From Bradyrhizobium sp. NFR13 (lineage in GTDB: Bacteria > Pseudomonadota > Alphaproteobacteria > Rhizobiales > Xanthobacteraceae), in contig NZ_FOTP01000002.1 in the NCBI RefSeq assembly GCF_900114605.1, positions 868,001 through 932,000 of the forward strand: a stretch of 64,000 nucleotides of DNA, in the 5' to 3' direction. Positions within the stretch are counted from its first letter, which is position 1. The number at the start of each line of letters is the position of its first letter. The notes beneath the pieces were generated by a model. That model searched no databases. It worked only from the letters and a program-made list of their open reading frames with translations, and had not been told where the DNA came from. The translations under genes were made by a program, and so were the position numbers. Below, piece after piece: positions 3,085 to 19,783 of the stretch.

Positions 3085-3265
3085 GCCGATGCTTTCCCCT
3101 CACTCCCACTCGATTGTTGAGATACCAACCAAGTATTTTATTTTTATGTAACTCCTTCTTCGCAATGAGAAATGCCGGCAGCGGCATACTGCTTTGCGCC
3201 AAGGGGTGGCCATGAAAATCATGCTTCATGGTCGCCTCTCCCTCAAATGCAGAATTCCGTCGCAA

Positions 3266-4635: not shown

Positions 4636-5697
4636 TCAGGCCGCCATGACCGGATAGTCGGTATACCCCTTTTCGGTACCACCGAAAAAGGTCATGCGAT
4701 CCGCCTCGTGGAACGGAGCGCCGATCTTCAGGCGTTCGATGAAGTCGGGATTGGCAAGGATCATCTGTCCATAGGCTTCGAGATCGGCGAGGCCCGAGGC
4801 GATATCGGTTCCGATCGCATCGCGCGCACGGCCCGGTCTGTTGATGATGAGCGTTCCCTTCCACAGGCGACGGATATCCGCGAGGAGCGCGTCATTGCCC
4901 TGGTCCATGATGTGGAGATAAGCGAGCCCCAGCTTGTCGAGTTCGCCGACGAGATAGCGATAGAGCTCGGGGCCGTCCGGACCTTCGTCGATGCCCCAGA
5001 GCGCGGTTCCGGGCGAAAGGCGAATACTGGTGCGATCCGCACCGATTGCTTCGGCAATTGCCGTTGCCACCTCGATGGCGAAGCGTGCGCGGTTCTCGAT
5101 CGAGCCGCCGTAGCGGTCGGTGCGCTGGTTCGCGCTGGGGGCGAAGAACTGCTGGATCAGGTAGGCGTTGGCGCCGTGGATCTCCACGCCGTCGGCGCCC
5201 GCCTGGATCGCCGAGCGCGCCGCATGGGCGAAGTCCGCAACAGTCTGCGCCACCTCGTCGGTGGAAAGCGCGCGCGGGGTGGGCGCATCCTGCGGGCCGG
5301 TCGGCGTGAACATCTGGGCGCCGGGAGCAATGGCTGAGGGGGCAACGCCCTGCCGGTGGTGCGGGGTGTTGTCCGGATGCGACATGCGTCCGGCGTGCAT
5401 GAGCTGGATGAAGATGTGGCCACCCTTGGCGTGAACTGCATCGGTGATCGGGCGCCAGGCCGCGACGTGCCCGGGGGTGTAGATGCCGGGCGTAGTCATG
5501 TAACCCTGCCCGTCCGAGGAGGGCTGCGTACCCTCAGTCACGATCAGGCCGACGCTGGCGCGCTGCGCATAGTATTCGGTGGCGAGATCGCCCGGCGCGC
5601 CGTCAGCATTGGCGCGACTACGGGTCATCGGCGCCATGACCAGCCGATTGGGAAGGTCGTATCGGCCGAGGCGGACGGGTTCGAAGAGTGTGCTCAC
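4636..5697 (-). CDS. Alkene reductase, old yellow enzyme family
   Basis: A 353-residue FMN-dependent TIM-barrel enzyme. It starts with GTG, preceded by GGAG. N-terminal FEPVRLGRYDLPNRLVMAPM binds FMN. The catalytic pair lies in EIHGANAYLIQQFFAP, followed by the RTDRYGGSIENR signature. It reduces activated C=C bonds, and in some members nitro-esters, with NAD(P)H in the cytoplasm. It is the first gene of an operon with pirin and isochorismatase genes and faces a LysR gene across 105 bp. Control of the operon by that LysR protein is the simplest reading. Confidence 0.92.
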   Translation of the reverse strand: MSTLFEPVRLGRYDLPNRLVMAPMTRSRANADGAPGDLATEYYAQRASVGLIVTEGTQPSSDGQGYMTTPGIYTPGHVAAWRPITDAVHAKGGHIFIQLMHAGRMSHPDNTPHHRQGVAPSAIAPGAQMFTPTGPQDAPTPRALSTDEVAQTVADFAHAARSAIQAGADGVEIHGANAYLIQQFFAPSANQRTDRYGGSIENRARFAIEVATAIAEAIGADRTSIRLSPGTALWGIDEGPDGPELYRYLVGELDKLGLAYLHIMDQGNDALLADIRRLWKGTLIINRPGRARDAIGTDIASGLADLEAYGQMILANPDFIERLKIGAPFHEADRMTFFGGTEKGYTDYPVMAA

Positions 5698-5758
5698 AGT
5701 GTTTCTCCGTTGGTGGATTGCTTGTGAACACTATCGGCACTGGATTAATTGGGATAAA

Positions 5759-5777
5759 GACACCATCTTGGAGAACA
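5759..5777. promoter_or_regulatory. Shared 19-nt motif, copy 2, in the LysR/OYE divergent promoter
   Basis: The sequence gacaccatcttggagaaca lies 25-43 bp upstream of the LysR start and about 60 bp upstream of the OYE start. It is 16/19 identical to the motif upstream of the OmpA gene (3066-3084). A perfect palindrome ccattaatgg follows at 5782-5791. LysR proteins bind in such divergent regions, so this is a candidate operator; the assignment is inference. Confidence 0.45.
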
Positions 5778-5802
5778 TTGGTCCATTAATGGAGCAATAA
5801 AA

Positions 5803-6681
5803 ATGGGCCATCTCGACGACATGGCGTTGTTCGTGGAGGTCGTGAAAACGAAGAGTTTCCGCGGCGCAGCCGAGGCGCTCAACATGCCCAATTCCACGGT
5901 CTCGCGCCGGATCAGTGTGCTCGAGAAAGCCCTTGGCCTACGGCTCCTTCACCGCACGACACGGCGGATCGAACTGACCGAGGCGGGCCAGCTGTATTTC
6001 GAGCGCAGCAAACGCATCGTTGAAGAGGCGCGCCTCGCTCATGTCGAGCTTGGCGATATGCTGGCTCAGCCCACGGGCCTGTTGCGTGCCTCGTTGCCCG
6101 TGGACTTCGCGGTCACCTATCTTGCGCCGCTGGTTGCCGAGTTCGCTCGCCTTCATCCGGGCATTACGTTTGACATCGACCTGACCCCACGCCGGATCGA
6201 CCTCGTCAGCGAACCCTGCGATGTCGCTATTCGGATGGGCGAACCGGAAGATTCACATCTCATCGCAAGGCCGCTGGCACTGCTCCAACCGCAGCTTTAC
6301 GCAGCGCCCGGATATCTTTCGGAGCGAGGTGAACCGCAAACACCTGAAGACCTCGCACAGCACGACTGCATGGGAATGATCAAGGCCGGAACCTGGACAC
6401 TGCTCTCGGGAGACCAGACGCACCTGGTCCGCGTCGGCGGTCGCTTCCAGCTCAACAACGTAGGTATGATCAAGCGTTTATCCACGCTTGGCATGGGCGT
6501 GATCCTCGTTCCCGAGGAAATCGTCGCAGACGAAAAGGCATCAGGCCAATTGCGGCGTATTCTGCCGGAATGGCAAGGCAAGCCGATGCCTGTTTATGCG
6601 CTGACCGAAACCCGCCTGCTCCCGGCGAAGACTCAGCGCTTCATCGACTTCATGCGCGACAAGCTCGCGTCGCGAAGGTGA
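5803..6681 (+). CDS. LysR family transcriptional regulator
   Basis: A 292-residue LysR protein. The winged helix-turn-helix spans residues 1-60 (SFRGAAEALNMPNSTVSRRI). The effector domain starts near residue 90 (LLRASLPVDFAVTYLAP) and ends with LPAKTQRFIDFMRDKL. It is divergent from the OYE-pirin-isochorismatase operon and probably activates it. LysR regulators of OYE genes often respond to electrophiles or quinones, but the ligand cannot be read here. Translation starts at ATG 5803 behind an A-rich leader with only a weak ribosome-binding site. Confidence 0.92.
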   Translation: MGHLDDMALFVEVVKTKSFRGAAEALNMPNSTVSRRISVLEKALGLRLLHRTTRRIELTEAGQLYFERSKRIVEEARLAHVELGDMLAQPTGLLRASLPVDFAVTYLAPLVAEFARLHPGITFDIDLTPRRIDLVSEPCDVAIRMGEPEDSHLIARPLALLQPQLYAAPGYLSERGEPQTPEDLAQHDCMGMIKAGTWTLLSGDQTHLVRVGGRFQLNNVGMIKRLSTLGMGVILVPEEIVADEKASGQLRRILPEWQGKPMPVYALTETRLLPAKTQRFIDFMRDKLASRR

Positions 6682-6980
6682 GCCGAGCGATCGTAACGCC
6701 TCGATCAACGATGCATTTTTTTCCGCGCACGATGACGAACCGCCTCCCCCTATCCGTCAGAAATTTGCGCTCTTGAATTCAAAGCGGAATTTCGCCGGTT
6801 CGGAATCTGCTCGGTTTCAGCGACTATCGGAATTGATCGGTCGATTTTCGAGGTCTCTGCCGAAAGCCACGCGATCGGATCGCCGCAGAAAATGCCGTCA
6901 TCGTCAGTAGCTGTAATTTCAAAGTATCCACCCGGACCAGAGATGATGACAAAACGGCATGGACGTCAGCCTGGTCGAGG

Positions 6981-7943
6981 TCAATCGGCGACTTCCACTT
7001 CCGGAACTGCCGGTTGCCTTTGACCTCCGTCAAGGCGTTGAGCGGCCCGATAGCGGCCGGGTGACAGGCCGAGATGTCGATGGAACAGTTTTGAAAACGC
7101 CGCCGCTGTCTCGTAACCGACCCGGCTCGCAATCCGTGCGATGGGCTCGTCGCTGGTTTCGAGCAGGAACGCCGCTTCTGCCATCCGGCGTTCGATCACA
7201 TAACGGTGCATGGACTGCCCGACGAGCTTGGTGAAGCGGGCCGAAAATACCGAGCGGCCGAGCCCCACGCGATGGCCGAGGTCGCCAAGGGTCCAGGGCC
7301 GCTCCGGGTTTTCGTGCATCAACTTGAGCGCCGGTCCGATATGCGGGTCTGATATTGCCCCGAGCCAGCCGCCTTGTCCGGGACTGAGAGACGCAATCCA
7401 GCTTCGAAGCACCTCGACAAAAAGCACTTCCGTCAGTCGTGAGAGCGCGACGCGCTGGCCAAGACGCTCAAGCGCGGACTCGTTCACCATGCGGCGCAGG
7501 ATTGCTTCGAGCCAGCCACCGTCAGCCGTCGGCTTCAACAGAAGCACGGGCGGAAGTGCTTCCAGCAAGCTGCCGTACAACGGGCGCGACACGGTGAAAT
7601 TGCCACAGATCATGGTCGAGAGCGGCTTTGCACGGCCGCCGTGACGAACGACGCCAAGACGTGCCGACGATCGATCAAGGTCCACGATCCGCAAAGGCTT
7701 CGCCCGGCGATCCGAATAAAACGCATGGGGCGCGCCGCGTGTGATGACGACAAAATCGCCCTCGGTCATGTGGAGTTCTTGTGCCTGTTCGAGCGCGAGG
7801 GTCGCCGAGCCCCGACTGAGATAATGAAACAGGGCGTAGGGACGCGCCGGCAACTCCAGATTCCAGGGATGGCCGAGCTCGAAGTGGAAGAGCAGCGTCC
7901 CTCCGAGACGAACGCGATCGAGCACCTGGGCGAGGATGTCCAT
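6981..7943 (-). CDS. AraC family regulator with N-terminal cupin
   Basis: A 320-residue protein when started at MDILAQVLDRVRLGG. Residues about 1-190 form the AraC-associated cupin domain seen in regulators of oxidoreductases and hydrolases (PYALFHYLSRG, MTEGDFVVITRGAPH). Residues about 215-310 form a double helix-turn-helix (LGRSVFSARFTKLVGQSMHRYV and IASRVGYETAAAFSKLF). It is divergent from the periplasmic hydrolase gene at 8159, the likely target. About 300 bp downstream toward the LysR gene (6682-6980) hold no gene I can support. Confidence 0.9.
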   Translation of the reverse strand: MDILAQVLDRVRLGGTLLFHFELGHPWNLELPARPYALFHYLSRGSATLALEQAQELHMTEGDFVVITRGAPHAFYSDRRAKPLRIVDLDRSSARLGVVRHGGRAKPLSTMICGNFTVSRPLYGSLLEALPPVLLLKPTADGGWLEAILRRMVNESALERLGQRVALSRLTEVLFVEVLRSWIASLSPGQGGWLGAISDPHIGPALKLMHENPERPWTLGDLGHRVGLGRSVFSARFTKLVGQSMHRYVIERRMAEAAFLLETSDEPIARIASRVGYETAAAFSKLFHRHLGLSPGRYRAAQRLDGGQRQPAVPEVEVAD

Positions 7944-8158
7944 GCCGCCGAAGTTAGTCCGGTGGACGGTCGGACACAACATCCGGACGATTGATCCCTA
8001 TCGTCCGCAAAGCCCGCGGAATAGGTCATGTCGCGGCGGGTCGACGTCACGTGTGGCAACCATTTCGTCAACGGCGGATGGAAGAACCGCGACTTGGCTG
8101 GAAACGCCTGTCCATTCCCCGGACCTTGTTCGTCCGACATTCCAACAGGAACCAATCA

Positions 8159-8929
8159 ATGCGAAATCTCCTGCTCTCAGCCGCCACCGTACTCTTGGCC
8201 GGAACGGCATTAGCCGGCTCCGTCCACTCCGCCGAACTGCCCAAGGGAGCAGTCCACAATATCGTGCTCGTGCACGGCGCTTTCGTGGACCAGACGAGTT
8301 GGCAGCCCGTTGCCGATATTCTGACGAAGAAGGGCTACAGCGTCACGCTCGTGGAAAATCCGCTCACCTCGCTTGCCGCCGATGTTGATGCCACCAAGCA
8401 GGCGCTCGCGAAACAGAACGGCAGGACCGTTCTCGTCGGCCATTCATGGGGTGGGGTGGTGATCACGCAAGCCGGCAACGATCCCAAGGTTTCGGCGCTG
8501 GTCTATGTCTCCGCCTTCGCGCCCGAGGTCGGTGAATCCCTGGCATCACTGGCCAAAGCCGGCCCGCCGACCGAAGGCGGCAATGCGATCCATCCCGACG
8601 CAAAGGGCAACCTGTACATCGACCCCAAGGTGTTTCCGTCGGCGGTCGCGGCTGACCTTCCTCCGGAGATCGCCGCGCACCTGGCTAACTCGCAGCTTCC
8701 ATTGAATCACGTTGCGTTCGAGGCTCCCGTCAGTATAGCGGCGTGGCATGACAAGCCGACGTTCTATGTCATCAGCACGAAGGACAAAGTCCTCGCGCCC
8801 GAGGCTCAGAAATCCTTTGCAGCCAGGATCAAGGCTCAGACGACGGAAGTCGCAGGCAGTCATGCCTCGCTCGTTGTTCATGCCAAGCAGGTCGCTGAGG
8901 TCATCGAAAAGGCAGCGCTCGCGAAGTGA
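8159..8929 (+). CDS. Secreted alpha/beta hydrolase
   Basis: A 256-residue protein with a signal peptide (residues 1-25) and an alpha/beta-hydrolase fold. VLVHGAFVDQTSW gives the oxyanion loop. The nucleophile is S96 in VGHSWGG. The catalytic His is probably the one in VAGSHASLVVHA near the C-terminus, with the Asp in STKDKVL. It belongs to the small salicylate-esterase/pheromone-hydrolase-like group often paired with cupin-AraC regulators. Expected location is the periplasm. The open frame extends upstream, but the Met at 8159 gives a proper signal peptide. The substrate is unknown. Confidence 0.9.
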   Translation: MRNLLLSAATVLLAGTALAGSVHSAELPKGAVHNIVLVHGAFVDQTSWQPVADILTKKGYSVTLVENPLTSLAADVDATKQALAKQNGRTVLVGHSWGGVVITQAGNDPKVSALVYVSAFAPEVGESLASLAKAGPPTEGGNAIHPDAKGNLYIDPKVFPSAVAADLPPEIAAHLANSQLPLNHVAFEAPVSIAAWHDKPTFYVISTKDKVLAPEAQKSFAARIKAQTTEVAGSHASLVVHAKQVAEVIEKAALAK

Positions 8930-9087
8930 CGGTATCGCTCCCGGCGCTCGCGCCGGGAGCGCGCACGTGCGCTGAACCGCGATGGCGCACACCGGTCCGC
9001 CAATGCACAGCCCGCGGCAGCATGAACCCTGGCGCGCTCCGGCGCGAGCAGAGGCACCTTATCCATGAGAGTTGTTACGGAGGACAA

Positions 9088-9582
9088 ATGACAATCGCTA
9101 AAGTCGAAGTGGAGCGTTTCAGCCTCACGAGCTCAAGACCATTCGATGCTGTTGTGGCCGCGCTCAAGTCGGCGGTCGGGCAACCCAACATGACCGAGTT
9201 TTTCAAGGAGACGAGGGCGACAAAATCCTTCCCGGATTTAGAACGCGTTGTACATGGCAGCCTCGGTCGAACGGACCTTATGCTCTTCGCAGAATTTGAC
9301 TTGGGCGACATTCTGCGTCGCGAAACTGGGTCCAAGACGCCTCAGATCATACGGCTTGTGGTTGGCAATCCGCTCATCATGAAGGAAATGGTCAAGCACG
9401 TGCCCGATGCTGGCTCCTATGCTCCAGTCACAGTGCTGATCGATGAGCGGCCCGATGGCGTGCACATCTCTTACGACAAAATGGAGAGTTATCTGCTGCG
9501 TTATGCCAACGCGGAAGCTCTAGCCGTCGCCCGGGATCTGGATGCGAAGGTAACAACTTTACTGCGCGAATGCGCCGGCTGA
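9088..9582 (+). CDS. DUF302 domain protein
   Basis: A 164-residue cytoplasmic protein. It starts at ATG 9088 behind a strong site (ACGGAGGACAA); the longer frame upstream is not supported. VERFSLTSSRPFDAVVAALKSAVG and the later LFAEFDLGDILRRETG fit the DUF302 fold, a small alpha/beta domain of unknown biochemical role often found with redox or stress genes. VLIDERPDGVHISYDKMESYL follows in the core. It sits between the hydrolase and an NTF2-like gene on the same strand, with gaps of about 160 and 110 bp. Confidence 0.7.
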   Translation: MTIAKVEVERFSLTSSRPFDAVVAALKSAVGQPNMTEFFKETRATKSFPDLERVVHGSLGRTDLMLFAEFDLGDILRRETGSKTPQIIRLVVGNPLIMKEMVKHVPDAGSYAPVTVLIDERPDGVHISYDKMESYLLRYANAEALAVARDLDAKVTTLLRECAG

Positions 9583-9695
9583 AACATTCTGATGATGTTT
9601 TCGACGATTGAATGTGAATGTCTCACCATTCGCCAATGCAACTGGCACTCACATGCGCCTCACGAATTGTCGAAATGCGGGAAGGAATATTCTGC

Positions 9696-10223
9696 ATGAC
9701 TAAATTACTTCTTGTCACTCTCCTGGCATCGGCTCTTTCCTCCGGCGCTGTCGCCGCGTCGCCCGCCATCGGTAAAGAGCCGCTCGATTCTGCCACGCTG
9801 AATACGATCAAATCGAAATTCGGCACGCTCATGCAATTGGCCAATAGGCACGATTTCCAGGCTCTGCATGATATGTTCTGGCAATCGCCCTCGACCCTAT
9901 TGGTGGCGAAGAGCGCGATCCAGTCAGAGGGGAATTGGGCCGGCTTTTGGGGCAACGAAGCGGTTGATCGGAAGCTGCAGGATATCGGCACCTCCGGTCC
10001 GGTCGTGCTCGAGCCAGATTACTCGAAGCTGAAGGTCGTCGGCCTGACGCTCGACGTCGCCGAGTCCTATGTGCCGATGAACATCACGGTCTCTTATGCG
10101 GGACAGGATGGAACAGCCAGGCCATTTCTAATGATCATCAACTGGCTTCGCGTCGGAGACGACTGGAAGATCGCTTCAGAAATTATTCTGCGGGTGCCGC
10201 CCCTACCCGCCACGAAACGCTAG
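9696..10223 (+). CDS. Secreted NTF2/SnoaL-like protein
   Basis: A 175-residue protein with a signal peptide ending at VAAS (about residue 21). The mature part looks like an NTF2-like cone fold: LMQLANRHDFQALHDMFW is the first helix pair and PFLMIINWLRVGDDWKIASE the final strands. Such domains serve as small-molecule pockets, isomerases or multimerisation modules. No catalytic residues are recognised. Together with the hydrolase and DUF302 genes it may form one accessory unit under the AraC regulator. Start chosen at MTKLLLVTLL because it gives the signal peptide; GGAAGGAATAT precedes it. Confidence 0.65.
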   Translation: MTKLLLVTLLASALSSGAVAASPAIGKEPLDSATLNTIKSKFGTLMQLANRHDFQALHDMFWQSPSTLLVAKSAIQSEGNWAGFWGNEAVDRKLQDIGTSGPVVLEPDYSKLKVVGLTLDVAESYVPMNITVSYAGQDGTARPFLMIINWLRVGDDWKIASEIILRVPPLPATKR

Positions 10224-10265
10224 GCGCCAAGCCTCAACTGTTTGGCACGAAGCCAATAGGTCGAC

Positions 10266-10314
10266 GTGATGTCACACACCACGCGACTGACGCCCTTCAC
10301 CTCGTTGATGATGC
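10266..10314 (-). pseudogene. Detached fragment of the guaA 3' region (direct repeat of 18210-18258)
   Basis: This 49-nt stretch matches the intact guaA at 18210-18258 in 46 positions, in the same orientation. Read on the minus strand it encodes [16 protein letters not shown]; the intact gene has N and Y at the two changed residues, and the third difference is silent. The match begins sharply beside a perfect palindrome (ccccgcgcgggg, 10314-10325). It ends 34 nt before the position of the guaA stop codon. It is too short to be functional and looks like a remnant of integration or recombination at guaA. Confidence 0.85.
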
Positions 10315-10354
10315 CCCGCGCGGGGTGCCCGCTCGTGTACCAGCCCCGCGGCGC

Positions 10355-10384
10355 GGCAGGTGTTACCTGCCAACGCCGTTTTTT
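10355..10384 (+). terminator. Weak hairpin with T-run downstream of the NTF2-like gene
   Basis: A perfect 7-bp stem (ggcaggt/acctgcc, 3-nt loop, 10355-10371) is followed after seven bases by six T residues. It could end plus-strand transcription from the NTF2-like gene 130 bp upstream. The spacer between stem and T-run is longer than usual. Confidence 0.35.
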
Positions 10385-10405
10385 GAACAGCTTTCGCTGC
10401 CCGCC

Positions 10406-13198
10406 TTAGTAGTGGACGGACGCCCCCATCGCACCGACCTTCGGCGGTGCGAACTTGGTCAGATCGATACCTTCGACCGCGGCCTTGTACTCTTCCGCGC
10501 TCGGCGTACGGCCAAGGATCGCTGACAGCACCACGACCGGGGTCGAGGCCAGGAGCGATTCACCCTTCTTCTCGGCGGTATCTTCCACGACGCGGCCCTG
10601 GAACAGACGGGTCGAGGTCGCGAGAACCGTATCGCCCTTCTCCGCCTTTTCTTGGTTGCCCATGCACAGGTTGCAGCCCGGACGTTCGAGATAGAGGATG
10701 TTCTCGTAGGCGGTGCGGTTCGCGGTCTTCGGTTTCACATCGTCGAATTCGAAGCCCGAATACTTCTGCAGGATTTCCCAATCCCCTTCGGCCTTCAGCT
10801 CGTCGATGATGTTGTAGGTCGGCGCAGCAACGACCAGCGGCGCGTTGAAAGCGACCTTGCCCTCGGACTTCTCGATGTTCTTGAGCATCTGGGCAACGAT
10901 CTTCATGTCGCCCTTATGCACCATGCACGAGCCGACGAAGCCGAGATCGACCTTCTTGGTGCCGCCGTAATACGAGATCGGACGGATCGTGTCGTGGGTG
11001 TAGCGGCGCGACACGTCGGCATTGTTGACGTCGGGATCGGCGATCATCGGCTCGTCGATGATGTCGAGATCGACGACGACTTCGGCGAAGTACTTTGCAT
11101 TCGCATCCGGCGTCAGCGCGGGCTTCTCGCCCGAGCGGATCTCGGCGATGCGCGCATCCGCCTTGGCGATCAGGCCCTTCAGGGTCTGGGCCGGATTGTC
11201 CATGCCCTTGTCGATCATGATCTGGATGCGCGACTTGGCGATCTCCAGCGACTCGATCAGCGTTTCGTCCTGCGAGATGCAGATCGACGCCTTGGCCTTC
11301 ATCTCGGCCGTCCAGTCGGTGAAGGTGAAGGCCTGGTCGGCGAGCAGCGTGCCGATATGAACTTCGATGATGCGGCCCTGGAAGACGTTGTCGCCGCACT
11401 GCTGCAGCATCTGCGCCTGGGTCGCATGCACGACGTCGCGGAAGTCCATATAGGGCTTCATCGTGCCCTTGAAGGTCACCTTGACCGATTGCGGGATCGG
11501 CATGGTCGCCTCGCCGGTCGCCAGCGCCAGCGCCACGGTGCCGGAGTCGGCGCCGAACGCGACGCCCTTGGACATGCGGGTGTGGCTGTCGCCGCCGATG
11601 ATGATCGCCCAGTCATCCACGGTGATGTCGTTCAGCACCTTGTGGATCACGTCGGTCATCGAGTGATAGACGCCCTTCGGATCGCGCGCGGTGATCACGC
11701 CAAAGTTGTTCATGAAGGACATGAGCTTCGGGATGTTGACCTGGGCCTTCTTGTCCCAGACGGACGCGGTGTGGCAACCCGATTGATAGGCGCCGTCCAC
11801 GAGCGGCGAGATGACGGTGGCCGCCATCGCTTCCAGCTCCTGCGCGGTCATCAGGCCGGTGGTGTCCTGCGAACCAACGATGTTGACCTTCACGCGAACG
11901 TCCGAGCCGGCATGCAGCACCTTGCCCGGCGTCACGCCGACGGCATTGCGGTTGAAAATCTTCTCGACCGCGGTCAGGCCCTGGCCCTCGACGGTGATTT
12001 CCTTGTTCGGCGCGAAGACAGGAGTCGGTTCGACACCCAGCGTCTCGGCGGCAAAGGTCTGCAGCTTCTTGCCGAAGACGATGGCGTAAGAGCTGCCCGC
12101 CTTCATGAACTCCATCTTCTGCGGCGTGAACGCAGCGGCGACATCGACCAGCTCGTTGCCGGCTTCGTCACGCAGCTTCTTGGCCTTGGCGTCGAGCTTC
12201 AGCACGGTGCCGGTCGCGACCGAGTATTTCTGCTCGAGGATCGGGTTGCCTTCGTTGTTGAGCAGCGGCTTGCCGTCTTCACCGAGTTTCTTCACCCAGT
12301 TCTTCAGGTTGACGCCGATGCCGCCGGTCACGTCCACGGTGGTCGCGAAGATCGGCGAGATGCCGTTGGTGCCGGCGACGACCGGTGCGAAATTGACGAA
12401 GGGCACATAGGGGCTGGCCTGCTTGCCGGTCCACAGCGCCACATTGTTGACGCCGGACATGCGCGACGAGCCGACGCCCATCGTGCCCTTCTCGGCGATC
12501 ATCATCACGCGCTTGTCGGGGTGCTGCGCCTGCAGCGCCTGGATTTCCTTCTGTGCTTCCGGCGTGATCATGCACTGGCCGTGCAGCTCGCGGTCCGAAC
12601 GCGAATGCGCCTGGTTGCCCGGCGACAAGAGGTCGGTCGAGATATCCCCTTCGGCGGCGATATAGGTGACGACCTTGATCTCGTCCTCGACGTCCGGGAG
12701 CTTGGTGAAGAACTCGGCCTTGGCGTAGCTCTCGAGCACGTCCTTGGCGACGGCGTTGCCGGCCTTGCAGGCATCGCGCAGCCGGAACATGTCTGCGTCG
12801 TAGAGGAAGACCTGGGTCTTCAGCACTTCGCCAGCCTGCCTGGCCAGCGTGGCGTCAGCGCCCAGCGCGACGTCGAGCAGCACGCCGATCGAGGGTCCGC
12901 CCTTCATGTGCGACAGCAGTTCCAGCGCGAAACTGGGTGTGATTTCCGGGACGATCGCCTCGCCGAGGATGATTTCCTTGAGGAAGGCGGCCTTGACGCC
13001 CGCGGCGCTCGTGGTGCCCGGCAGGGTGTTGTAGATGAAGAATTTCAGGGCATCGGCGCGGTAGGCGCTGCCGTTGTCCTTGATCAGGGCGATGATTTCG
13101 CCTGTGAGCGCGCCGTCATCGATCGGTTTGGGAGCGAGGTTTTGAGCTTTTCTGCTTTCGATCTCAGCGAGGTAATCTGAATAGAGGCTCATCATCAT
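10406..13198 (-). CDS. acnB: Bifunctional aconitate hydratase 2 / 2-methylisocitrate dehydratase
   Basis: A 930-residue AcnB, longer than the 865-residue E. coli enzyme. The N-terminal HEAT-like helical domain (residues 1-160, FALELLSHMKGGPSIGVLLDVAL) is diagnostic of AcnB rather than AcnA. Candidate iron-sulfur cysteines are in YQSGCHTAS and in the C-terminal GCNLCMGNQ. It interconverts citrate and isocitrate in the TCA cycle and can hydrate 2-methyl-cis-aconitate. Three ATG codons stand in tandem at the start, so the start may shift by one or two residues. It lies inside the interval bounded by the two guaA copies, odd for a core enzyme; a second aconitase elsewhere would explain that. Confidence 0.95.
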   Translation of the reverse strand: MMMSLYSDYLAEIESRKAQNLAPKPIDDGALTGEIIALIKDNGSAYRADALKFFIYNTLPGTTSAAGVKAAFLKEIILGEAIVPEITPSFALELLSHMKGGPSIGVLLDVALGADATLARQAGEVLKTQVFLYDADMFRLRDACKAGNAVAKDVLESYAKAEFFTKLPDVEDEIKVVTYIAAEGDISTDLLSPGNQAHSRSDRELHGQCMITPEAQKEIQALQAQHPDKRVMMIAEKGTMGVGSSRMSGVNNVALWTGKQASPYVPFVNFAPVVAGTNGISPIFATTVDVTGGIGVNLKNWVKKLGEDGKPLLNNEGNPILEQKYSVATGTVLKLDAKAKKLRDEAGNELVDVAAAFTPQKMEFMKAGSSYAIVFGKKLQTFAAETLGVEPTPVFAPNKEITVEGQGLTAVEKIFNRNAVGVTPGKVLHAGSDVRVKVNIVGSQDTTGLMTAQELEAMAATVISPLVDGAYQSGCHTASVWDKKAQVNIPKLMSFMNNFGVITARDPKGVYHSMTDVIHKVLNDITVDDWAIIIGGDSHTRMSKGVAFGADSGTVALALATGEATMPIPQSVKVTFKGTMKPYMDFRDVVHATQAQMLQQCGDNVFQGRIIEVHIGTLLADQAFTFTDWTAEMKAKASICISQDETLIESLEIAKSRIQIMIDKGMDNPAQTLKGLIAKADARIAEIRSGEKPALTPDANAKYFAEVVVDLDIIDEPMIADPDVNNADVSRRYTHDTIRPISYYGGTKKVDLGFVGSCMVHKGDMKIVAQMLKNIEKSEGKVAFNAPLVVAAPTYNIIDELKAEGDWEILQKYSGFEFDDVKPKTANRTAYENILYLERPGCNLCMGNQEKAEKGDTVLATSTRLFQGRVVEDTAEKKGESLLASTPVVVLSAILGRTPSAEEYKAAVEGIDLTKFAPPKVGAMGASVHY

Positions 13199-13503
13199 CC
13201 CAACGTCATGAGGTGGTTGACGCTGAAACGCAGCGCCACCAACCGTTATTGTTAAAACCGGTCTAAAGGCGAATTCGGCTTCGAGTACGTCAATCGGGGC
13301 CGACTGACAAGATACTGCATTGCGGTAAAAATAGCCCTTTAAATTCAGCGTTCAACGGTCAAAACATGACGGCAGGCATGCTTGCCGGGCTGAAATGATG
13401 GTTCTCACCCGACCTGCCGCAAAGAAACGCTCCGAAGACGCGTCCGAAACGTCGGTCTGACCCGCCGCCGTCAGCCAATTGGTGGCCGGCGACCCGCCGC
13501 ACA
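13199..13503. other. Intergenic region between acnB and the LysR gene
   Basis: These 305 bp hold the acnB promoter region. An imperfect inverted repeat (ggtggttg at 13212-13219 and caccaacc at 13235-13242) lies just upstream of acnB and could be an operator. The LysR gene ends at 13504 on the same strand. I see no gene or RNA here; the frames crossing it lack start signals and resemble no protein. Confidence 0.5.
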
Positions 13504-14400
13504 TCAGTCGCGCGATATGGACAGCCCTGCGAGAAGCGGCGCATACGCGGCGAGCCTGCGGGATATGAACTCCGTGAAGAGCCGCACCCGCTTTGTCTTG
13601 CGTGTCTCCCCCTGCGTGAGAAGCCAGAGCGTCCCATGCATGGGCAGGTCGGTGCCCGGCACCCTCACCAGTAGAGGGTCGGCATCTCCAACGAAGCACG
13701 GCAGCTTCGTCATCCCGATCCCTTGCTGCGCCGCTACGATCTGCGCCTCGGCGTCCGGGGTCCTGAACGGAACTCCCGTGGTGTGAACCTCTCCCTCGCG
13801 CGCCCAGCCCGGGAGGCCATGATTGTTGATGACGATCCACCGGATGGGATCAGGCGCGCCCGCACGCCACGCGGCGAGTCGATCGCGAGACATGTAGACG
13901 GCGCTGAACAGCTCCGGTCCCCTCAGGCCGTGAAGATTGAGCGGCAGGGTCTTGCGGTCGGCGACAATGCGGATCGCGACGTCTGCCTCACGGTTAGTCA
14001 GATTCGCCACCTCGCCACTCGACAAGATTTCCATCTCGATGTCCGGATACATACGCGAGAAGTCTGCGAGATCCGGCATGAGCAGGTGTGTGGCGAGGAA
14101 CGGTGGAAGCGTCACCCGCAAAAGCCCGCGCGCGCCCTGGTCGCGACCGAAGACGCGTGTCTCCAACTGGTGCGACGACGCTTCCATCTGATCCGCGAGC
14201 TCGAGGACCTCCTCGCCCGCAGCCGTCAGGCGGTAGCCCGAAGGCAGCTTCTCGAACATCTGCGCTCCGAGCCGTTCCTCCAGTTGGGCGATGCGTCGCA
14301 GCACGGTGGAGTGATTCACGCCGAGGCGCCCGGCGGCGGCCCGAACTGAACCTCCGCGCGCGACGGCAAGAAAGTATCGAACGTCATCCCAGTCGATCAT
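13504..14400 (-). CDS. LysR family transcriptional regulator
   Basis: A 298-residue LysR protein starting at MIDWDDVRYFL, 7 nt after AGGAA. The DNA-binding part spans residues 1-60 (GSVRAAAGRLGVNHSTVLRRI), and the effector domain begins near residue 90 (GLLRVTLPPFLATHLLMP). The N-terminus is typical of the GcvA/DsdC-like branch that starts WDDVRYFLAVA. It is divergent from the SDR/NAD-binding gene pair across 289 bp and is their likely regulator. The open frame upstream of the chosen start has no family similarity. Confidence 0.9.
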   Translation of the reverse strand: MIDWDDVRYFLAVARGGSVRAAAGRLGVNHSTVLRRIAQLEERLGAQMFEKLPSGYRLTAAGEEVLELADQMEASSHQLETRVFGRDQGARGLLRVTLPPFLATHLLMPDLADFSRMYPDIEMEILSSGEVANLTNREADVAIRIVADRKTLPLNLHGLRGPELFSAVYMSRDRLAAWRAGAPDPIRWIVINNHGLPGWAREGEVHTTGVPFRTPDAEAQIVAAQQGIGMTKLPCFVGDADPLLVRVPGTDLPMHGTLWLLTQGETRKTKRVRLFTEFISRRLAAYAPLLAGLSISRD

Positions 14401-14689
14401 GGTGCATTCCTGCGCCACGCGGGACGCCTTTCCAAGGCCAGTGTCTACATTACCGAACGGCATCCGGCACTGGGATAGCAAGAGCGGGCGTTATCGCACA
14501 TGCCGACGCGTGCAGCCCCGTCCGAACGGCGACGTTGATCGTCGCACCTGGCGTCGGCCGTCCAACTGGATCGATTTCGCACCACCGATGTGCGCGCTTC
14601 CGCACTGAACGCCCGACGCCGGCAGACCCATGTCCACGGTCTCGGGGGTCTTCCCCGAACGACCAAGCACGGAGTCTGAAGGAAAAGTC

Positions 14690-15424
14690 ATGGGAAAGCT
14701 TGAAGGTAAGGTTGCAGTTATCACGGGTGGATCGAGCGGCATGGCGCTGGCGAGCGCCAGGCGGTTCGTTGAAGAAGGCGCTTACGTCTTCATCACGGGC
14801 CGAAGGCAGGAGGCGCTCGATGAGGCCGTCAGGCTGATTGGCCGGAACGTGACCGGCGTGCGCGGCGACGCGGCCAATCTCGACGACCTCGACCGCCTGT
14901 TCGACACGGTCAAGCGGGAAAAGGGAGAGATCGACATCCTGTATGCGAGCGCCGGCACGGGCGAAGCCTTGCCACTGGGCGAGATTACCGAGCAGCATTT
15001 CGATGCGACCTTCGGCCTGAATGCGCGCGGCACGCTATTCACGGTGCAAAAGGCGCTGCCGCTGTTCAATGATGGCGGATCGATCTTCATGACCGGATCG
15101 GTTGCGTCGTTGAAAGGCTTTCCTGGTTACAGCGTGTATGCCGCGAGCAAGGCGACGCTGCACGCATTCGCACGCGGGTGGCTCAACGAGCTGAAGGGCA
15201 GAAATATCCGGGTGAACGTGCTGCACCCCGGGCCGATCGCCACACCGATGCAGGACCAGGTCCTCACCGAGGAGGCGAAGCAGATGTTCGAATCCCTGAT
15301 CCCGCGGGGAAAGATGGGGCGTCCCGAGGAAATCGCGGCGGTCGCGCTGTTTCTTGCTTCAGACGATTCGAGCTTCGTGAATGGGCTGGAGCTGTCTGTC
15401 GACGGCGGCTTCTCGGCGATCTGA
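14690..15424 (+). CDS. Short-chain dehydrogenase/reductase
   Basis: A 244-residue classical SDR. The cofactor motif is TGGSSGMA (residues 12-19), with M where most have I. The NAG-like motif is changed to YASAGTG, and the catalytic pair is Y150/K154 (YAASK) with the serine in MTGSVAS. FITGRRQEALDEA suggests NADP preference through the arginines. Start at ATG 14690 behind GAAGGAAAAG. The NAD(P)-binding gene follows after 16 bp, so the two form an operon probably controlled by the divergent LysR gene. The substrate is unknown. Confidence 0.92.
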   Translation: MGKLEGKVAVITGGSSGMALASARRFVEEGAYVFITGRRQEALDEAVRLIGRNVTGVRGDAANLDDLDRLFDTVKREKGEIDILYASAGTGEALPLGEITEQHFDATFGLNARGTLFTVQKALPLFNDGGSIFMTGSVASLKGFPGYSVYAASKATLHAFARGWLNELKGRNIRVNVLHPGPIATPMQDQVLTEEAKQMFESLIPRGKMGRPEEIAAVALFLASDDSSFVNGLELSVDGGFSAI

Positions 15425-15440
15425 AAATCGGAGAAGCATC

Positions 15441-16040
15441 ATGAGCTACGCGATTATAGGATTCGGCAAGATAGGCCAGGCCCTCGCCCACGCCTTCGCC
15501 CGTAAGAACATCGAGGTGACCGTCGCGAGCCGCCGGCCGCCCGAGGCGTTGGCGACACAGGCTCGGGCGATTGGACCCACGGTGGTCGCCAAGTCGCTGC
15601 GGGATGCACTCGAGGCCGACACGATCATCCTGGCGGTCCCGTTCGGCGAGCATCGCGAGGTTGCGAAGGCCCTGCCGAACTGGAAAGGCAAGACGGTCAT
15701 CGACGCGATGAACGCGTTTCCAGTCCCTGAAGAGCTGGACGGTCTGCCGTCCTCCGCCTTCGTTGCGAAGTCGTTCACCGGCGCCAGGCTCGTCAAAGGC
15801 TTCAATCACCTGATTGCAGCCACACTGGCGACCGATCCGGTCGTCACAGGCGGCCACCGGGTCGTCTTTCTGTCTGGTGACGACGAGGATGCGATCGCTC
15901 CCGTGGCGGATTTGGCCAAACAACTCGGCTTCGCCCCCGTCAAGCTCGGAAAGCTCAACGAGGGTGGCGCGCTGGTGCACGCACGCGGCCGCAGCTGGGG
16001 CCAGCTCATCTTCCAGGATTTGTTCAAGAAGGAGCAGTGA
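15441..16040 (+). CDS. NADPH-dependent F420 reductase-like oxidoreductase
   Basis: A 199-residue Rossmann protein. GFGKIGQALAHAFA (residues 7-20) binds the dinucleotide, and VASRRPPE suggests NADP. ILAVPFGEHREVAKAL and TVIDAMNAF match the F420-dependent NADP oxidoreductase family, which in Proteobacteria is often used without F420. It lies 16 bp after the SDR gene behind GGAGAAGC and is surely co-transcribed. The short distance and shared cofactor type suggest one redox pathway; the substrate is not readable. Confidence 0.85.
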   Translation: MSYAIIGFGKIGQALAHAFARKNIEVTVASRRPPEALATQARAIGPTVVAKSLRDALEADTIILAVPFGEHREVAKALPNWKGKTVIDAMNAFPVPEELDGLPSSAFVAKSFTGARLVKGFNHLIAATLATDPVVTGGHRVVFLSGDDEDAIAPVADLAKQLGFAPVKLGKLNEGGALVHARGRSWGQLIFQDLFKKEQ

Positions 16041-16187
16041 TCGATCTACGACCGTGTGATCGACGCCGAGAATTGGTCGCGCGCGCTCACTTCGAGCAGC
16101 GCGCGACCGAATATTTGAAGGCCACAAAGTTGCGAAGATCGGGAGTGCCGCCGCCGCAAGATATGATCCTGGCTGATCCGATGGTAG

Positions 16188-17357
16188 CTAAAGGTCAAGC
16201 TCGCCGTCGCGGAGTTTTCGGTCACGTTCCGAAATTTCGGCATCGTCGGCTGGGAATATCGTTGCCATGCCATCATTGGCTGCCCTTATCTGAACCTCAT
16301 CGACAAAGGCCTGCAGTTTGTCGTGATAGTCTTGAAAGGCGGCGGTGTAATCGGCGCCGTACCGTTCCAATGCTTCAGCAAGCCGTCCCGCCCCGATGAT
16401 CGCCATCGAGCCGCCCATGCCTGCCACCGGTGATACGCAGTAGCCTGCGTCACCCACGAGAGCGACCCGCCCTTTCGACCAAAACGGCATCCGAATCTGG
16501 TTGATCCTGTCAAAGTAAAAATCGTCGGCGGCGTCTACATGCGTCAGGGCGGCCGGCACCTTCCAGCCTAGCCCATCGAAATGGTCATGGATCATCGCTC
16601 GCTGCTGCGCGCGATCGAGATAGTCGTATTCGATTTCGCCCTCGGTGCGAAACGCGAGGCCAATGTCGGTTCGATCGTCGTAGCCGTTCAGCATTGCCGT
16701 TCGGCGTGGCACGCTGAACACCTGCGATACGTTGGACGGCAATATGCCCGTCACCGGCACGACCTTCAGATAGACATAACCTCCCATGAAGTAAGTGAAA
16801 TTCTTCTCGGCGCCGAACACCAACTTCCTCGTGTTGGAGCGATTGCCGTCGCAGCCAAACACCAGGGCATAGGTGCGCCGCGTCCCGTCATCCAACGTGA
16901 CCGTGACGCCTTCAGGACCATCATCGAGCTGTTTGATCGACCTGCCGAACAGCAACTCGACCGATCCATCGATCCCCGCGAAGAGGATTTCCAGCAGATC
17001 ATCACGGTGTATCTCAAACCGGGTGCGCGGCGGCGCATCCAAGCCGGTTTCGAGACCAAAGCCGCCAAGCGTGTGATCCTGAGCGTCCTTGAACTCAAAC
17101 GCACGCGGGGGCAGCGCCTTGGCTCGAACAGCATCGAACATGCCCATGCGTTCGAGAATGCCGACGGTCTCGCCCTCGATGTCGACCGGCGTCCCGCCTT
17201 TGCGAAGCCCGCTTGCAACCTCGACCACCGTGACCCGGTAGCCCAGTCGGTTGAGCCAATAAGCCGTCGCCAAGCCCGCGAAGCTTGCGCCACTGACCAG
17301 CACAGGGGCCTCGGAAGGCGTGTGAGGATTCTGGACGGAAACAGGTTCGTCGACCAT
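16188..17357 (-). CDS. FAD-dependent monooxygenase (PHBH-like)
   Basis: A 389-residue class A flavoprotein hydroxylase. The Rossmann motif is GASFAGLATAYWLNRLGYRV (around residue 25), the middle motif is FGCDGNRSNTR, and the C-terminal FAD motif is ALVGDAGYCVSPVAGMGG. Such enzymes hydroxylate aromatic or antibiotic substrates with NAD(P)H and O2. The start at MVDEPVSV is supported by GGAG 6 nt upstream; another ATG lies 12 nt earlier without a site. It is divergent from a TetR gene across 77 bp with strong palindromes. This layout resembles TetX/RdmE-type monooxygenase loci. Confidence 0.92.
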   Translation of the reverse strand: MVDEPVSVQNPHTPSEAPVLVSGASFAGLATAYWLNRLGYRVTVVEVASGLRKGGTPVDIEGETVGILERMGMFDAVRAKALPPRAFEFKDAQDHTLGGFGLETGLDAPPRTRFEIHRDDLLEILFAGIDGSVELLFGRSIKQLDDGPEGVTVTLDDGTRRTYALVFGCDGNRSNTRKLVFGAEKNFTYFMGGYVYLKVVPVTGILPSNVSQVFSVPRRTAMLNGYDDRTDIGLAFRTEGEIEYDYLDRAQQRAMIHDHFDGLGWKVPAALTHVDAADDFYFDRINQIRMPFWSKGRVALVGDAGYCVSPVAGMGGSMAIIGAGRLAEALERYGADYTAAFQDYHDKLQAFVDEVQIRAANDGMATIFPADDAEISERDRKLRDGELDL

Positions 17358-17385
17358 AGAAGACTCCATGGGAGATGGATATTTA

Positions 17386-17418
17386 GATATATCGAATCCC
17401 AATATATACTGAGTATAT
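17386..17418. promoter_or_regulatory. Candidate TetR operators between the monooxygenase and TetR genes
   Basis: The AT-rich divergent intergenic region holds a perfect inverted repeat atatac-tga-gtatat (17404-17418) and a second palindrome gatatatc (17386-17393). TetR proteins bind 15-nt palindromes of this kind in the promoter of the divergent target gene. The AT content is far above the surroundings. Binding by the adjacent TetR protein is inferred. Confidence 0.6.
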
Positions 17419-17434
17419 TTAAGGGCAAGGCCTG

Positions 17435-18073
17435 ATGGACGAAAAAGACGACCGACGCACGCGCAAGCGTTTGGCAACCCGCCAGAGCATCTCGGACACG
17501 GCAACCCGTCTGTTCCTTGAGCGGGGCTTCGATTCCGTAACGATCGACGAAATCGCTGCAGCTGCTGACGTGGGCCGTATGACGGTCTTCAATCATTTCC
17601 CCCGGAAAGAGGACATGTTCTTCGACCGCGAGGAAGAGATTCAGGCGTTGGCCTTCGACGCTATTCGCAAACGTGGGCCCGGCGTCTCGCCGATCGAAGC
17701 GACCCGCAAACTGGCGCATGACCTTGTTACGCAGGATCATGAGTTTGTGATGCTGTCCGGAGACACGAGTTGGTTCATCAAGACGGCCATGGCCAGTGAG
17801 GCGCTCAAGGCGCGCGCGCGGGAGATGCGAGACGATTTTACCCGCGCATTAGCAATCGTGTTGGCCGATACCAGCAACCAACCAACCGGTGATCCGAACG
17901 CTCATCTTGCAGCCGGACTCATCGTATCCACCTGGAACGTCGCCTTCAGTGAAGCGCAGAAACTCTTTGATCGCACGCGCGACGCGGGCGAGGCGAAGCG
18001 GTGCTTCCTTGCGGTAATCGACCGCGGGACCGCTGGGGCAGCCGCAGCCCTCGCAAAGACTGCTTACGCTTGA
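17435..18073 (+). CDS. TetR/AcrR family transcriptional regulator
   Basis: A 212-residue TetR regulator. Residues 10-60 form the helix-turn-helix, with SVTIDEIAAAADVGRMTVFN and the FNHFPRKEDMFF anchor. The remaining part is helical and divergent, as usual for ligand-binding domains. It is divergent from the FAD monooxygenase and most likely represses it and itself through the palindromes at 17386-17418. Start at ATG 17435 behind AAGG. It is the last gene before the guaA 3' end, about 100 bp away. Confidence 0.92.
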   Translation: MDEKDDRRTRKRLATRQSISDTATRLFLERGFDSVTIDEIAAAADVGRMTVFNHFPRKEDMFFDREEEIQALAFDAIRKRGPGVSPIEATRKLAHDLVTQDHEFVMLSGDTSWFIKTAMASEALKARAREMRDDFTRALAIVLADTSNQPTGDPNAHLAAGLIVSTWNVAFSEAQKLFDRTRDAGEAKRCFLAVIDRGTAGAAAALAKTAYA

Positions 18074-18175
18074 TTTGGCCGCATTTATCGAGCCTCGCGG
18101 CGAAAATCGCTGATCGAGATTAGACTGGGGAAGAACGGGGATTGGCTACACCCTTTAGCGTGCCTTCCTCTTACC

Positions 18176-19783
18176 CTATTCCCACTCGATCGTGCCCGGC
18201 GGCTTGCTTGTGATATCATACACCACGCGATTGACGCCCTTCACCTCGTTGATGATGCGCGTCGCCGTCTCGCCGAGGAACTTCATGTCGAACGCATAGA
18301 AGTCCGCGGTCATGCCGTCGGTCGAGGTCACGGCGCGCAGGCCGACGACGTATTCATAGGTGCGGCCGTCGCCCATCACGCCGACGGTCTTCACCGGCAG
18401 CAGCACGGCAAAGGCCTGCCAGATGGTGTCGTAGAGACCGGCCTTGCGGATCTGGTCGATATAGACCGCATCGGCCTCGCGCAGGATATCGAGTTTCTCG
18501 CGCGTGATCTCACCGGGGCAGCGGATCGCGAGGCCGGGGCCCGGGAACGGGTGGCGGCCGACAAAGATGTCCGGCAGGCCGAGCTCGCGGCCGAGATCGC
18601 GCACCTCATCCTTGAACAGTTCGCGCAGCGGCTCGACCAGCTTCATGTTCATGCGCGCCGGAAGGCCGCCGACATTGTGATGCGACTTGATGGTGACCGA
18701 AGGTCCGCCGGTGAAGGAGACGCTCTCGATCACGTCGGGATAGAGCGTGCCTTGCGCGAGGAAATCCGCGCCGCCGATCTTCTTGGCTTCGGCATCGAAC
18801 ACGTCGATGAACAGACGGCCGATGGTCTTGCGCTTCACCTCGGGATCGGTGACGCCTTCGAGCTCACCCAAGAATGTCTTGGACGCATCCACATGCACCA
18901 GCGGGATATTGTAGTGGTGCCGGAACAGATCGACGACGGTCTTGGCCTCGTCCTTGCGCAGCATGCCGTGATCGACAAATACGCACGTCAACTGGTCGCC
19001 GATCGCTTCATGGATCAGCACGGCTGCGACGGCGCTATCGACGCCGCCTGACAGACCGCAGATCACCTTGCCCTTGCCGACCTGGGCGCGGATCTTCTCG
19101 ATCGCTTCCTCGCGGAAGGCGCGCATGGTCCAGTCGCCGGTGAAACCGGCGATGTTGCGCACGAAGTTGCGGATCAGTTTTGCGCCGTCCGGCGTATGCG
19201 CGACTTCCGGGTGGAACTGCATCGCATAGAACTTGCGGACATCGTCAGCGATGATCGAGATCGGCGAGCCCGGCGCTTTCGCGACAGCACGGAAACCATC
19301 GGGCATCTTGGTGACGCGGTCGCCATGGCTCATCCAGACGTCGTATTTGCCGCCCTTCTCCCACACGCCCTCGAACAGCGCGCAGTCGTCAGTAATCTCG
19401 ATGGCAGCGCGGCCGAATTCGCGGTGATGGCCGGCTTCGACGGTGCCGCCGAGCTGCTGCGCCATGGTCTGTTCGCCGTAGCAGATGCCCAGCACCGGCA
19501 CGCCAGCGGTGAGGATCGACAGCGGCGCCGACGGCGCGTTGTCGTCGAGCACCGAGGCCGGGCCGCCTGACAGGATCACGGCTTTCGGCTTCATCTCGGC
19601 GAAGGCAGCCTCCGCCTTGTTGAACGGCACGATTTCCGAATAGACGCCCTCCTCGCGGACGCGCCGCGCGATCAGCTGCGTCACCTGGGAGCCGAAATCG
19701 ACGATCAGAATCTTGTCATGCGCCGCAGCCACATGGGGGGACGGATCGGCGGGCGAAGATGAGGTTTTGCTGGGGGCTGTCAT
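18176..19783 (-). CDS. guaA: GMP synthase (glutamine-hydrolysing)
   Basis: A 535-residue enzyme that aminates XMP to GMP with glutamine and ATP. The class I glutaminase domain (about residues 23-215) has its nucleophile Cys in LGICYGEQ and the His in QFHPEVAHT. The ATP-pyrophosphatase P-loop is [12 protein letters not shown], and the dimerisation domain ends at PPGTIEWE. The N-terminus carries about 20 extra residues before [11 protein letters not shown]. It follows rsmB by 64 bp on the same strand. Its 3' end is a known integration site for genomic islands, and a fragment of this region recurs at 10266-10314. Confidence 0.98.

Follow-up and report, generated by a model that had tools for sequence, protein, structure and literature searches.

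The window, the 64,000-nucleotide stretch analysed here (contig NZ_FOTP01000002.1 of Bradyrhizobium sp. NFR13, positions 868,001 to 932,000), carries the GMP synthase gene guaA on its minus strand (18176-19783, placed from its ORF and protein end), followed downstream by a row of small gene blocks. guaA is the docking gene of this row and its 3' end is the functional outer site (site 0, 18176-18190, minus), which was found by pattern search and has the core GAGTGGGA at 18180-18187, as in the genomic island GIsul2. Segment 1 (about 16143-18175) consists of a FAD-binding monooxygenase gene (16188-17504, minus) and a TetR regulator gene (17435-18073, plus), the two spanning 16188-18073. Segment 2 contains genes for an NAD(P)-binding F420-type oxidoreductase (15381-16040, plus; PF03807), a short-chain dehydrogenase (SDR; 14630-15424, plus), a LysR regulator (13504-14481, minus) and the second aconitase, AcnB (10406-13198, minus), and is followed by site 1 (10261-10314, minus), a displaced and split guaA 3' end that has lost its core. 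Segment 3 (6981-10223) comprises an ORF without a Pfam family (9618-10223), a DUF302 gene (8926-9582), an alpha/beta hydrolase gene (7991-8929) and an AraC-type regulator gene (6981-7982, minus). Site 2 (6685-6724, minus), an island arm without a core, separates it from segment 4 (4636-6681), which holds a LysR gene (5803-6681, plus) and an old-yellow-enzyme type oxidoreductase gene (4636-5697, minus). The row ends at site 3 (3096-3134, minus), where an arm is joined to an intact core and ACAATCGAGTGGGAGTGA at 3100-3117 supplies the guaA 3' end that is missing from site 1; an OmpA-like gene (2018-3007, minus) lies in the flank beyond.

The core is thus present on the same strand at 18180-18187 and 3104-3111 and absent from the internal sites 1 and 2, so that att-type sites with a retained core (18176-18190 and 3100-3114) bound the array as a whole and not its single segments. 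No integrase, relaxase or transfer genes were detected by Pfam among the main array proteins and part of the small ORFs, or with PF00589, and the window contains no tRNA genes. The G+C content is ordinary (60.2-62.3% in the segments, 62.8% in the backbone, whose 5-kb windows range from 59.7 to 64.8%), and base composition was uninformative as an island sign. A preceding sequence-only reading of this DNA had named the FAD-binding monooxygenase, TetR, NAD(P)-binding, SDR, LysR and AcnB genes correctly, and its statement that the block behind guaA contains no integrase also held, the only PF00589 match on the contig (E 1e-6) lying about 0.87 Mb from guaA. At the same threshold there was no PF00589 match near guaA, no GIsul2-family integrase belonging to the array was found, and no integrase-bearing neighbour of the array was seen in the window's genome.

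Positions 10266-10314 repeat positions 18210-18258 of guaA (minus) in the same orientation with 46 of 49 nucleotides identical, and the ungapped match reaches 56 nt at 89% identity (repeat family D3). The copy corresponds to guaA coding sequence for 16 residues, stops short of the last 34 nt of the gene including the stop codon, and, set against guaA alleles with TCG as serine codon, gains 5 nt and reaches 10261. The repeat itself is real, and these are its only two close copies in the genome: a 36-nt pattern derived from it, with up to 3 mismatches, occurs at two places only in the window and gave no match in 100 shuffled windows, and a BLAST search of the 6.22-Mb genome returned no third good copy, the next best of 13 matches being 19 nt long.

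The absence of the last 34 nt had been counted against a guaA island; the missing gene end was found about 7 kb away, at 3100-3117. Among the 18 genomes of the genus, which we take to be Tardiphaga, G016 and G003 have an unsplit guaA 3'-end remnant of 63-66 nt, complete with stop codon, directly behind acnB, and in G016 this remnant stands between acnB and the same OmpA-like gene that flanks the array in the window. The alignment of the window with G016 passes through acnB, stops at position 12551 of G016 and restarts at 12581, both inside the remnant, and then continues into the OmpA-like gene; at the break point the window has an additional 7.2 kb, absent from G016 at that place. In the window, the upstream part of the remnant lies at 10261-10314, its last 18 nt (encoding TIEWE and the stop) at 3100-3117, and 11 nt are gone, with the split point at the core GAGTGGGA of known guaA islands such as GIsul2. 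A remnant split by inserted DNA explains the 34 missing nucleotides, and from the comparison of these alleles the fragment appears to end short of its stop codon because later DNA was inserted inside it.

These observations bear on the simplest explanation, one island lying between the 49-nt copies (10266-18258) with nothing outside them belonging to it. Two copies with accessory cargo between them are what such an island would leave, but the rest of the copy lies with an intact core at 3100-3117, the allele of G016 is unsplit, and a further site occurs at 6685-6724; the split remnant and site 3 contradict a single island, which was rejected and which we regard as very improbable. The earlier proposal of an old, partly deleted and integrase-less scar at the guaA 3' end thus survives, without its single 8-kb island: the outer sites are 18176-18190 and 3100-3114, 15 kb apart, and the 49-nt copy is a guaA 3' end that has been displaced, an internal marker and not the end of an island. 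With the missing guaA end and the further sites taken together, the locus is best read as a tandem array of islands at guaA, decayed and without integrases.

No guaA copy was found in G004 and G008, though both hold segment 2. They present the oxidoreductase, SDR, LysR and acnB order without a guaA fragment, an arrangement that the sequence-only reading had held to speak against an island; the TetR and monooxygenase part of the order it described is absent from both. The copy was probably lost in these two genomes, which cease to be homologous to the window next to acnB, at about the same point. In both (loci L042 and L043), 74-80 nt that are 85-86% like the start of gene F9, presumably a serine hydrolase as read by eye from its sequence, adjoin acnB at the position where the guaA copy would be expected. 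Worn guaA 3' ends were also seen in G017 (L038, 17472-17562), where the end precedes a gene that we take, again by eye, to be tenA, and in G012 (L055, 9365-9456). Segment 1 has no plus-strand blastn match longer than 60 nt in G016, G003, G004, G008, G017 or G012, relatives that have segment 2 in whole or in part, and homology with all six restarts at 7858-7958 in coordinates oriented in the direction of guaA (24001 minus the window coordinate; blastn). Entry of the newest DNA next to guaA would produce this pattern.

The pattern ATCGAGTGGGARTRR, with one mismatch allowed, has two matches in the window (18176-18190 and 3100-3114, each on the minus strand), a number reached in none of 100 shuffles. 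By itself the 8-mer GAGTGGGA occurs in the window about as often as chance predicts (2 times, against 1.86 expected), and the argument therefore depends on the longer pattern and on the arm profile. Across 296 family genomes, ACAATYGAGTGGGARTRR identified 40 sites in 34 genomes, and the reversed-pattern control none. At least 11 of the 40 are native guaA ends. Among the other 29, 13 sites could be placed in 11 genomes with guaA on the same contig (G000, G017, G109 with three, G034, G148, G059, G054, G152, G061, G142 and G019), and all 13 lie downstream of guaA, on its strand and 0.7-100 kb away; for the remaining 16, guaA lies on a different contig or its place was not found, and 4 of these could be guaA ends. 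In G005, G014 and G054 the end of guaA does not contain GAGTGGGA exactly, yet G054 has both an integrase and a far site.

The DNA ahead of the core was compared for 33 of the 40 sites that lay in retrieved loci, with one dropped for masked bases and the window's own left out. Twelve arms are guaA-like (11 native ends and the copy in G034), versus 19 sites from 17 genomes that share a different, conserved arm with the consensus gaAAAaAaTTTGCgCcGcaAaATCAACGcGTTAngATGGCTCaGA ahead of ACAATCGAGTGGGA. A profile of these 19 sites, which includes one Tardiphaga (G017) and excludes the window, gave a sole significant match in the window, at 3134-3096 (E = 6.4e-7; next 0.38). The site-3 arm fits the consensus in part only, with an ungapped score of 4.35 that is equalled or exceeded at 7 of 127,910 window positions; leave-one-out scores were 11-53 for 18 of the 19 sites and -9.5 for G152. 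At site 2 (6685-6724) the arm is present and homology is lost just ahead of the core, and the homologous DNA of G012, 95% alike there, runs on into a complete arm and a core with one change. By ungapped arm matrix, site 2 ranks 2nd of 127,954 positions over columns 19-43 and 4th and 7th over two other column sets; it was absent from the matches of the gapped arm profile at E up to 20. The assignment of site 2 draws mainly on G012, whose homologous DNA has the site in complete form. Arm plus GAGTGGGA is a site motif that locates island ends where no integrase is left.

Further sites occur in other genomes. In G017 a complete one separates the segment 2 LysR gene from the first ORF of segment 3, and in G109, which belongs to another genus, five GAGTGGGA sites stand in a row behind that of guaA itself, three of them arm-type; its array includes, between guaA and a guaA 3' copy, relatives of the oxidoreductase (90%), SDR and LysR (85%) of segment 2. 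Segments 3 and 4 might alternatively have come by an unrelated event, a transposon or end joining, that happened to hit the 66-nt remnant, which would agree with the near junction, where the core is absent and 11 nt of guaA are missing. Since the far junction consists of an island arm and the exact core, and segment 3 has a site at its end in G012 and one ahead of it in G017, we consider such an event very improbable.

The 3' end of guaA is variable ground in the genus at large. Gene F9, conserved on the far side of the array, has a match in 13 of the 18 genus genomes, with at least 82% identity in 11, and shares a contig with the guaA end in 10. The distance between guaA and F9 is 1.05 kb in G015, 2.9 kb in G002, 3.1 kb in G013 (which has two guaA copies, the distance being taken from the second, at a contig end), 7.0 kb in G001, 8.7 kb in G008, 9.6 kb in G004, 11.5 kb in G003, 14.6 kb in G016, 14.7 kb in G005 and, in the genome of the window, 19.0 kb, with F9 lying just beyond the window's edge. 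PF00589 (E 1e-6) gave no match in any of these ten gaps. When at most six candidates per genome were scored, more than one match to the 100-nt guaA 3' end was found in 16 of the 136 family genomes with a match, and in 1 of 132 (two extra 23-nt matches) for the guaB control. All 13 guaA copies lying on the contig of guaA in 11 genomes are downstream of guaA and in its orientation (G000, G003, G016, G012, G017 with two, G027, G034, G047, G068 with two, G109 and G054, as listed), a count that leaves out the second matches of G019, G022, G057 and G126 as well as copies on other contigs in G013, G065, G085, G138 and one more of G027.

Integrases are found at guaA in relatives of the window. P4-like integrases (PF13356, PF22022, PF00589) lie directly behind guaA in G054, G085 and G097, and all five genomes with a displaced site 58-100 kb off (G148, G059, G152, G142 and G054) have an integrase behind guaA that is 74-100% like those three; the guaA-side integrase of G126 is 45% alike. 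The guaA-side integrases of relatives carry Arm-DNA-bind_3 (PF13356), which we take to mark a P4-like build as opposed to IntI. Six genomes with sites at most 15.1 kb away (G000, G017, G109, G034, G061 and G019) have no integrase between guaA and the site, as checked with PF00589, except in G061, where the check was by tblastn with three integrases only. Six integrase loci in the window's own genome were compared with the guaA integrases, and two were 25-28% alike and four gave no match (E 1e-8). An integrase 52 kb behind guaA in G007 was set aside, being 25-26% like the guaA integrases. The G054 integrase shares 59% identity with one encoded on a 148,955-bp Acinetobacter baumannii ATCC 17978 plasmid; this plasmid record would be pAB3, named as a carrier of GIsul2 (PMC9376610). 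A separate record from Sphingomonas parapaucimobilis (p5, L193) is a 3,975-bp circle in which a whole guaA is accompanied by alpA and a guaA-type integrase; it may have been excised or may be an assembly artefact.

The sequence-only reading had also doubted an island on the ground that the block contains a core enzyme, a doubt that dissolves on comparison. An acnA-type aconitase (TIGR01341) is present in 18 of 18 Tardiphaga genomes and acnB in 9 of 18 (5 from the family-wide search and 4 of 13 from a second genus search), always on the contig of guaA and within 1-6 kb behind it. The view of acnB as a core enzyme was accordingly rejected: it is accessory cargo in Tardiphaga. In the family at large, acnB occurs in 8 of 119 genomes, including the 5 Tardiphaga of that search, and in G023 and G097 acnB and guaA are on separate contigs. 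A quick tree of 35 proteins, for which 25 of 80 acnB loci were chosen by hand, places the eight Tardiphaga AcnB rows in one clade (SH-aLRT 99) next to Rhizobiaceae (86), with the two other family members falling elsewhere. Among the 80 acnB loci of other genera (L074-L153, with flanks of up to 10 kb, several shorter), guaA or a fragment of it was found only at L074, which proved to be a Tardiphaga robiniae record; the other 79 show no guaA, no fragment and no tblastn match (E 1e-15) to three guaA-side integrases, so acnB is not seen tied to guaA in these loci. Relatives of the window's AcnB (10406-13198) that are 80-93% identical occur in Rhizobium, Acetobacter, Sphingomonas and Flavobacterium, and it is a patchily distributed second aconitase in the family.

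Homologous recombination anchored in guaA could also have brought in donor downstream DNA with stray guaA 3' pieces, with no integrase acting on these segments. The window's AcnB is nearest to that of G005 (97%), and its GuaA to those of G004, G008, G016 and G003 (98%; G005 95%), which is in keeping with such an exchange, as is the guaA-like arm of site 1; the Sphingomonas circle with its whole guaA and integrase adds that guaA pieces may travel. The conserved non-guaA arm, the single orientation and the same core at displaced sites in many genera are left unexplained by this route, and we judge it very improbable.

We infer instead, with good confidence, that repeated integrase-mediated insertions of islands at the guaA 3' end, with GAGTGGGA as core, gave the row of blocks, and that the 49 nt are site 1, split later. 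Under this explanation islands would attach at the guaA 3' end through a tyrosine integrase that is a relative of the GIsul2 enzyme, and repeated site-specific insertions would have produced the order segment 1, segment 2, site 1, segment 3, site 2, segment 4, site 3, flank. Site 1 would be the copy of the guaA 3' end left at the far end of segment 2, and segments 3 and 4 would have been inserted later at the core inside this copy, leaving its parts at 10261-10314 and 3100-3117; sites 1 and 2 would since have lost their cores. The sites, their order and their orientation are observed in the window itself, and the unsplit allele, the conserved arm and the integrase beside guaA where sites are far away are observed in other genomes; the order of the insertion events is deduced, a GIsul2-related integrase would have made the window's joins, and the blocks would either have travelled in trans or have shed their integrases. 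With their cores gone, sites 1 and 2 do not reveal the exact products of an integrase. Simple integration does not predict that site 1 has a guaA-like arm in place of the usual island arm; as a guess, a circle carrying part of guaA, as in the L193 record, would explain it.

Related arrangements have been described. GIsul2 is an island at guaA with the core GAGTGGGA, for which an account is given of three sites in a row (attL, attLR and attR) and of units inserted in attR (PMC9376610). The window resembles it in the gene end, the core and the several sites in a row, and, in relatives of the window, in a related integrase beside guaA, the units at GIsul2 likewise sitting at the attR of a guaA island (PMC9376610). 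Unlike GIsul2 as outlined there, the window has no integrase, replication or transfer genes among the proteins scanned, its internal cores are lost, and its cargo consists of small oxidoreductase and regulator sets plus acnB (PMC9376610). The ssrA islands of Dehalococcoides are similarly tandem islands behind one essential gene, with direct repeats all downstream within 100 kb and 15 islands without an integration module, but they use ssrA and a serine recombinase in place of guaA and a tyrosine integrase (PMC3146451). CIMEs, described as decayed islands that keep attL and attR, share with the window blocks between att sites that have no integrase or transfer genes and are stacked by accretion; unlike theirs, the window's internal sites are degenerate, and CIME-like cis-mobilisation is putative here (PMC5704250). 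Mesorhizobium ICEs likewise use guaA as an island site in Rhizobiales, specified by the integrase, although those at guaA are reported as large conjugative elements with the integrase IntG, unlike the array in the window (PMC8627217). Tandem integrase-less islands behind one gene, and islands at guaA, are therefore already known, and the window's locus is a new, decayed case; no description of its array turned up among the papers listed for Tardiphaga, genomic islands and guaA. With the successive insertions recognised, the 49-nt repeat becomes a legible history at one gene end, with before and after states in related species, and the supposed core enzyme AcnB becomes accessory cargo.

A broader proposal, which we advance tentatively and hold to be possible but rather doubtful, is that guaA anchors a cassette system in the family, in which small integrase-less blocks, some with a single main ORF, each with a conserved arm of about 45 nt plus a core at its end and all in one orientation, would be moved in trans by the GIsul2-family integrases of visiting islands. 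Candidate examples would be the blocks of G019, G061 and G109 and the window's three site-bounded stretches behind guaA. If such transfer in trans takes place, guaA would serve the family as a collecting point resembling an integron. In G061 (L199, 976-11565), guaA is followed by a 1.4-kb block with a single main ORF, of 348 aa and without a Pfam or PADLOC match, and then by a 9.1-kb block in which PDC-M54A and PDC-S36, both candidate defence families, are matched and HipA-like and PIN-domain ORFs occur. In G019 (L200, 807-2221), a 1.4-kb block with one ankyrin-repeat ORF lies between guaA and a complete arm-type site.
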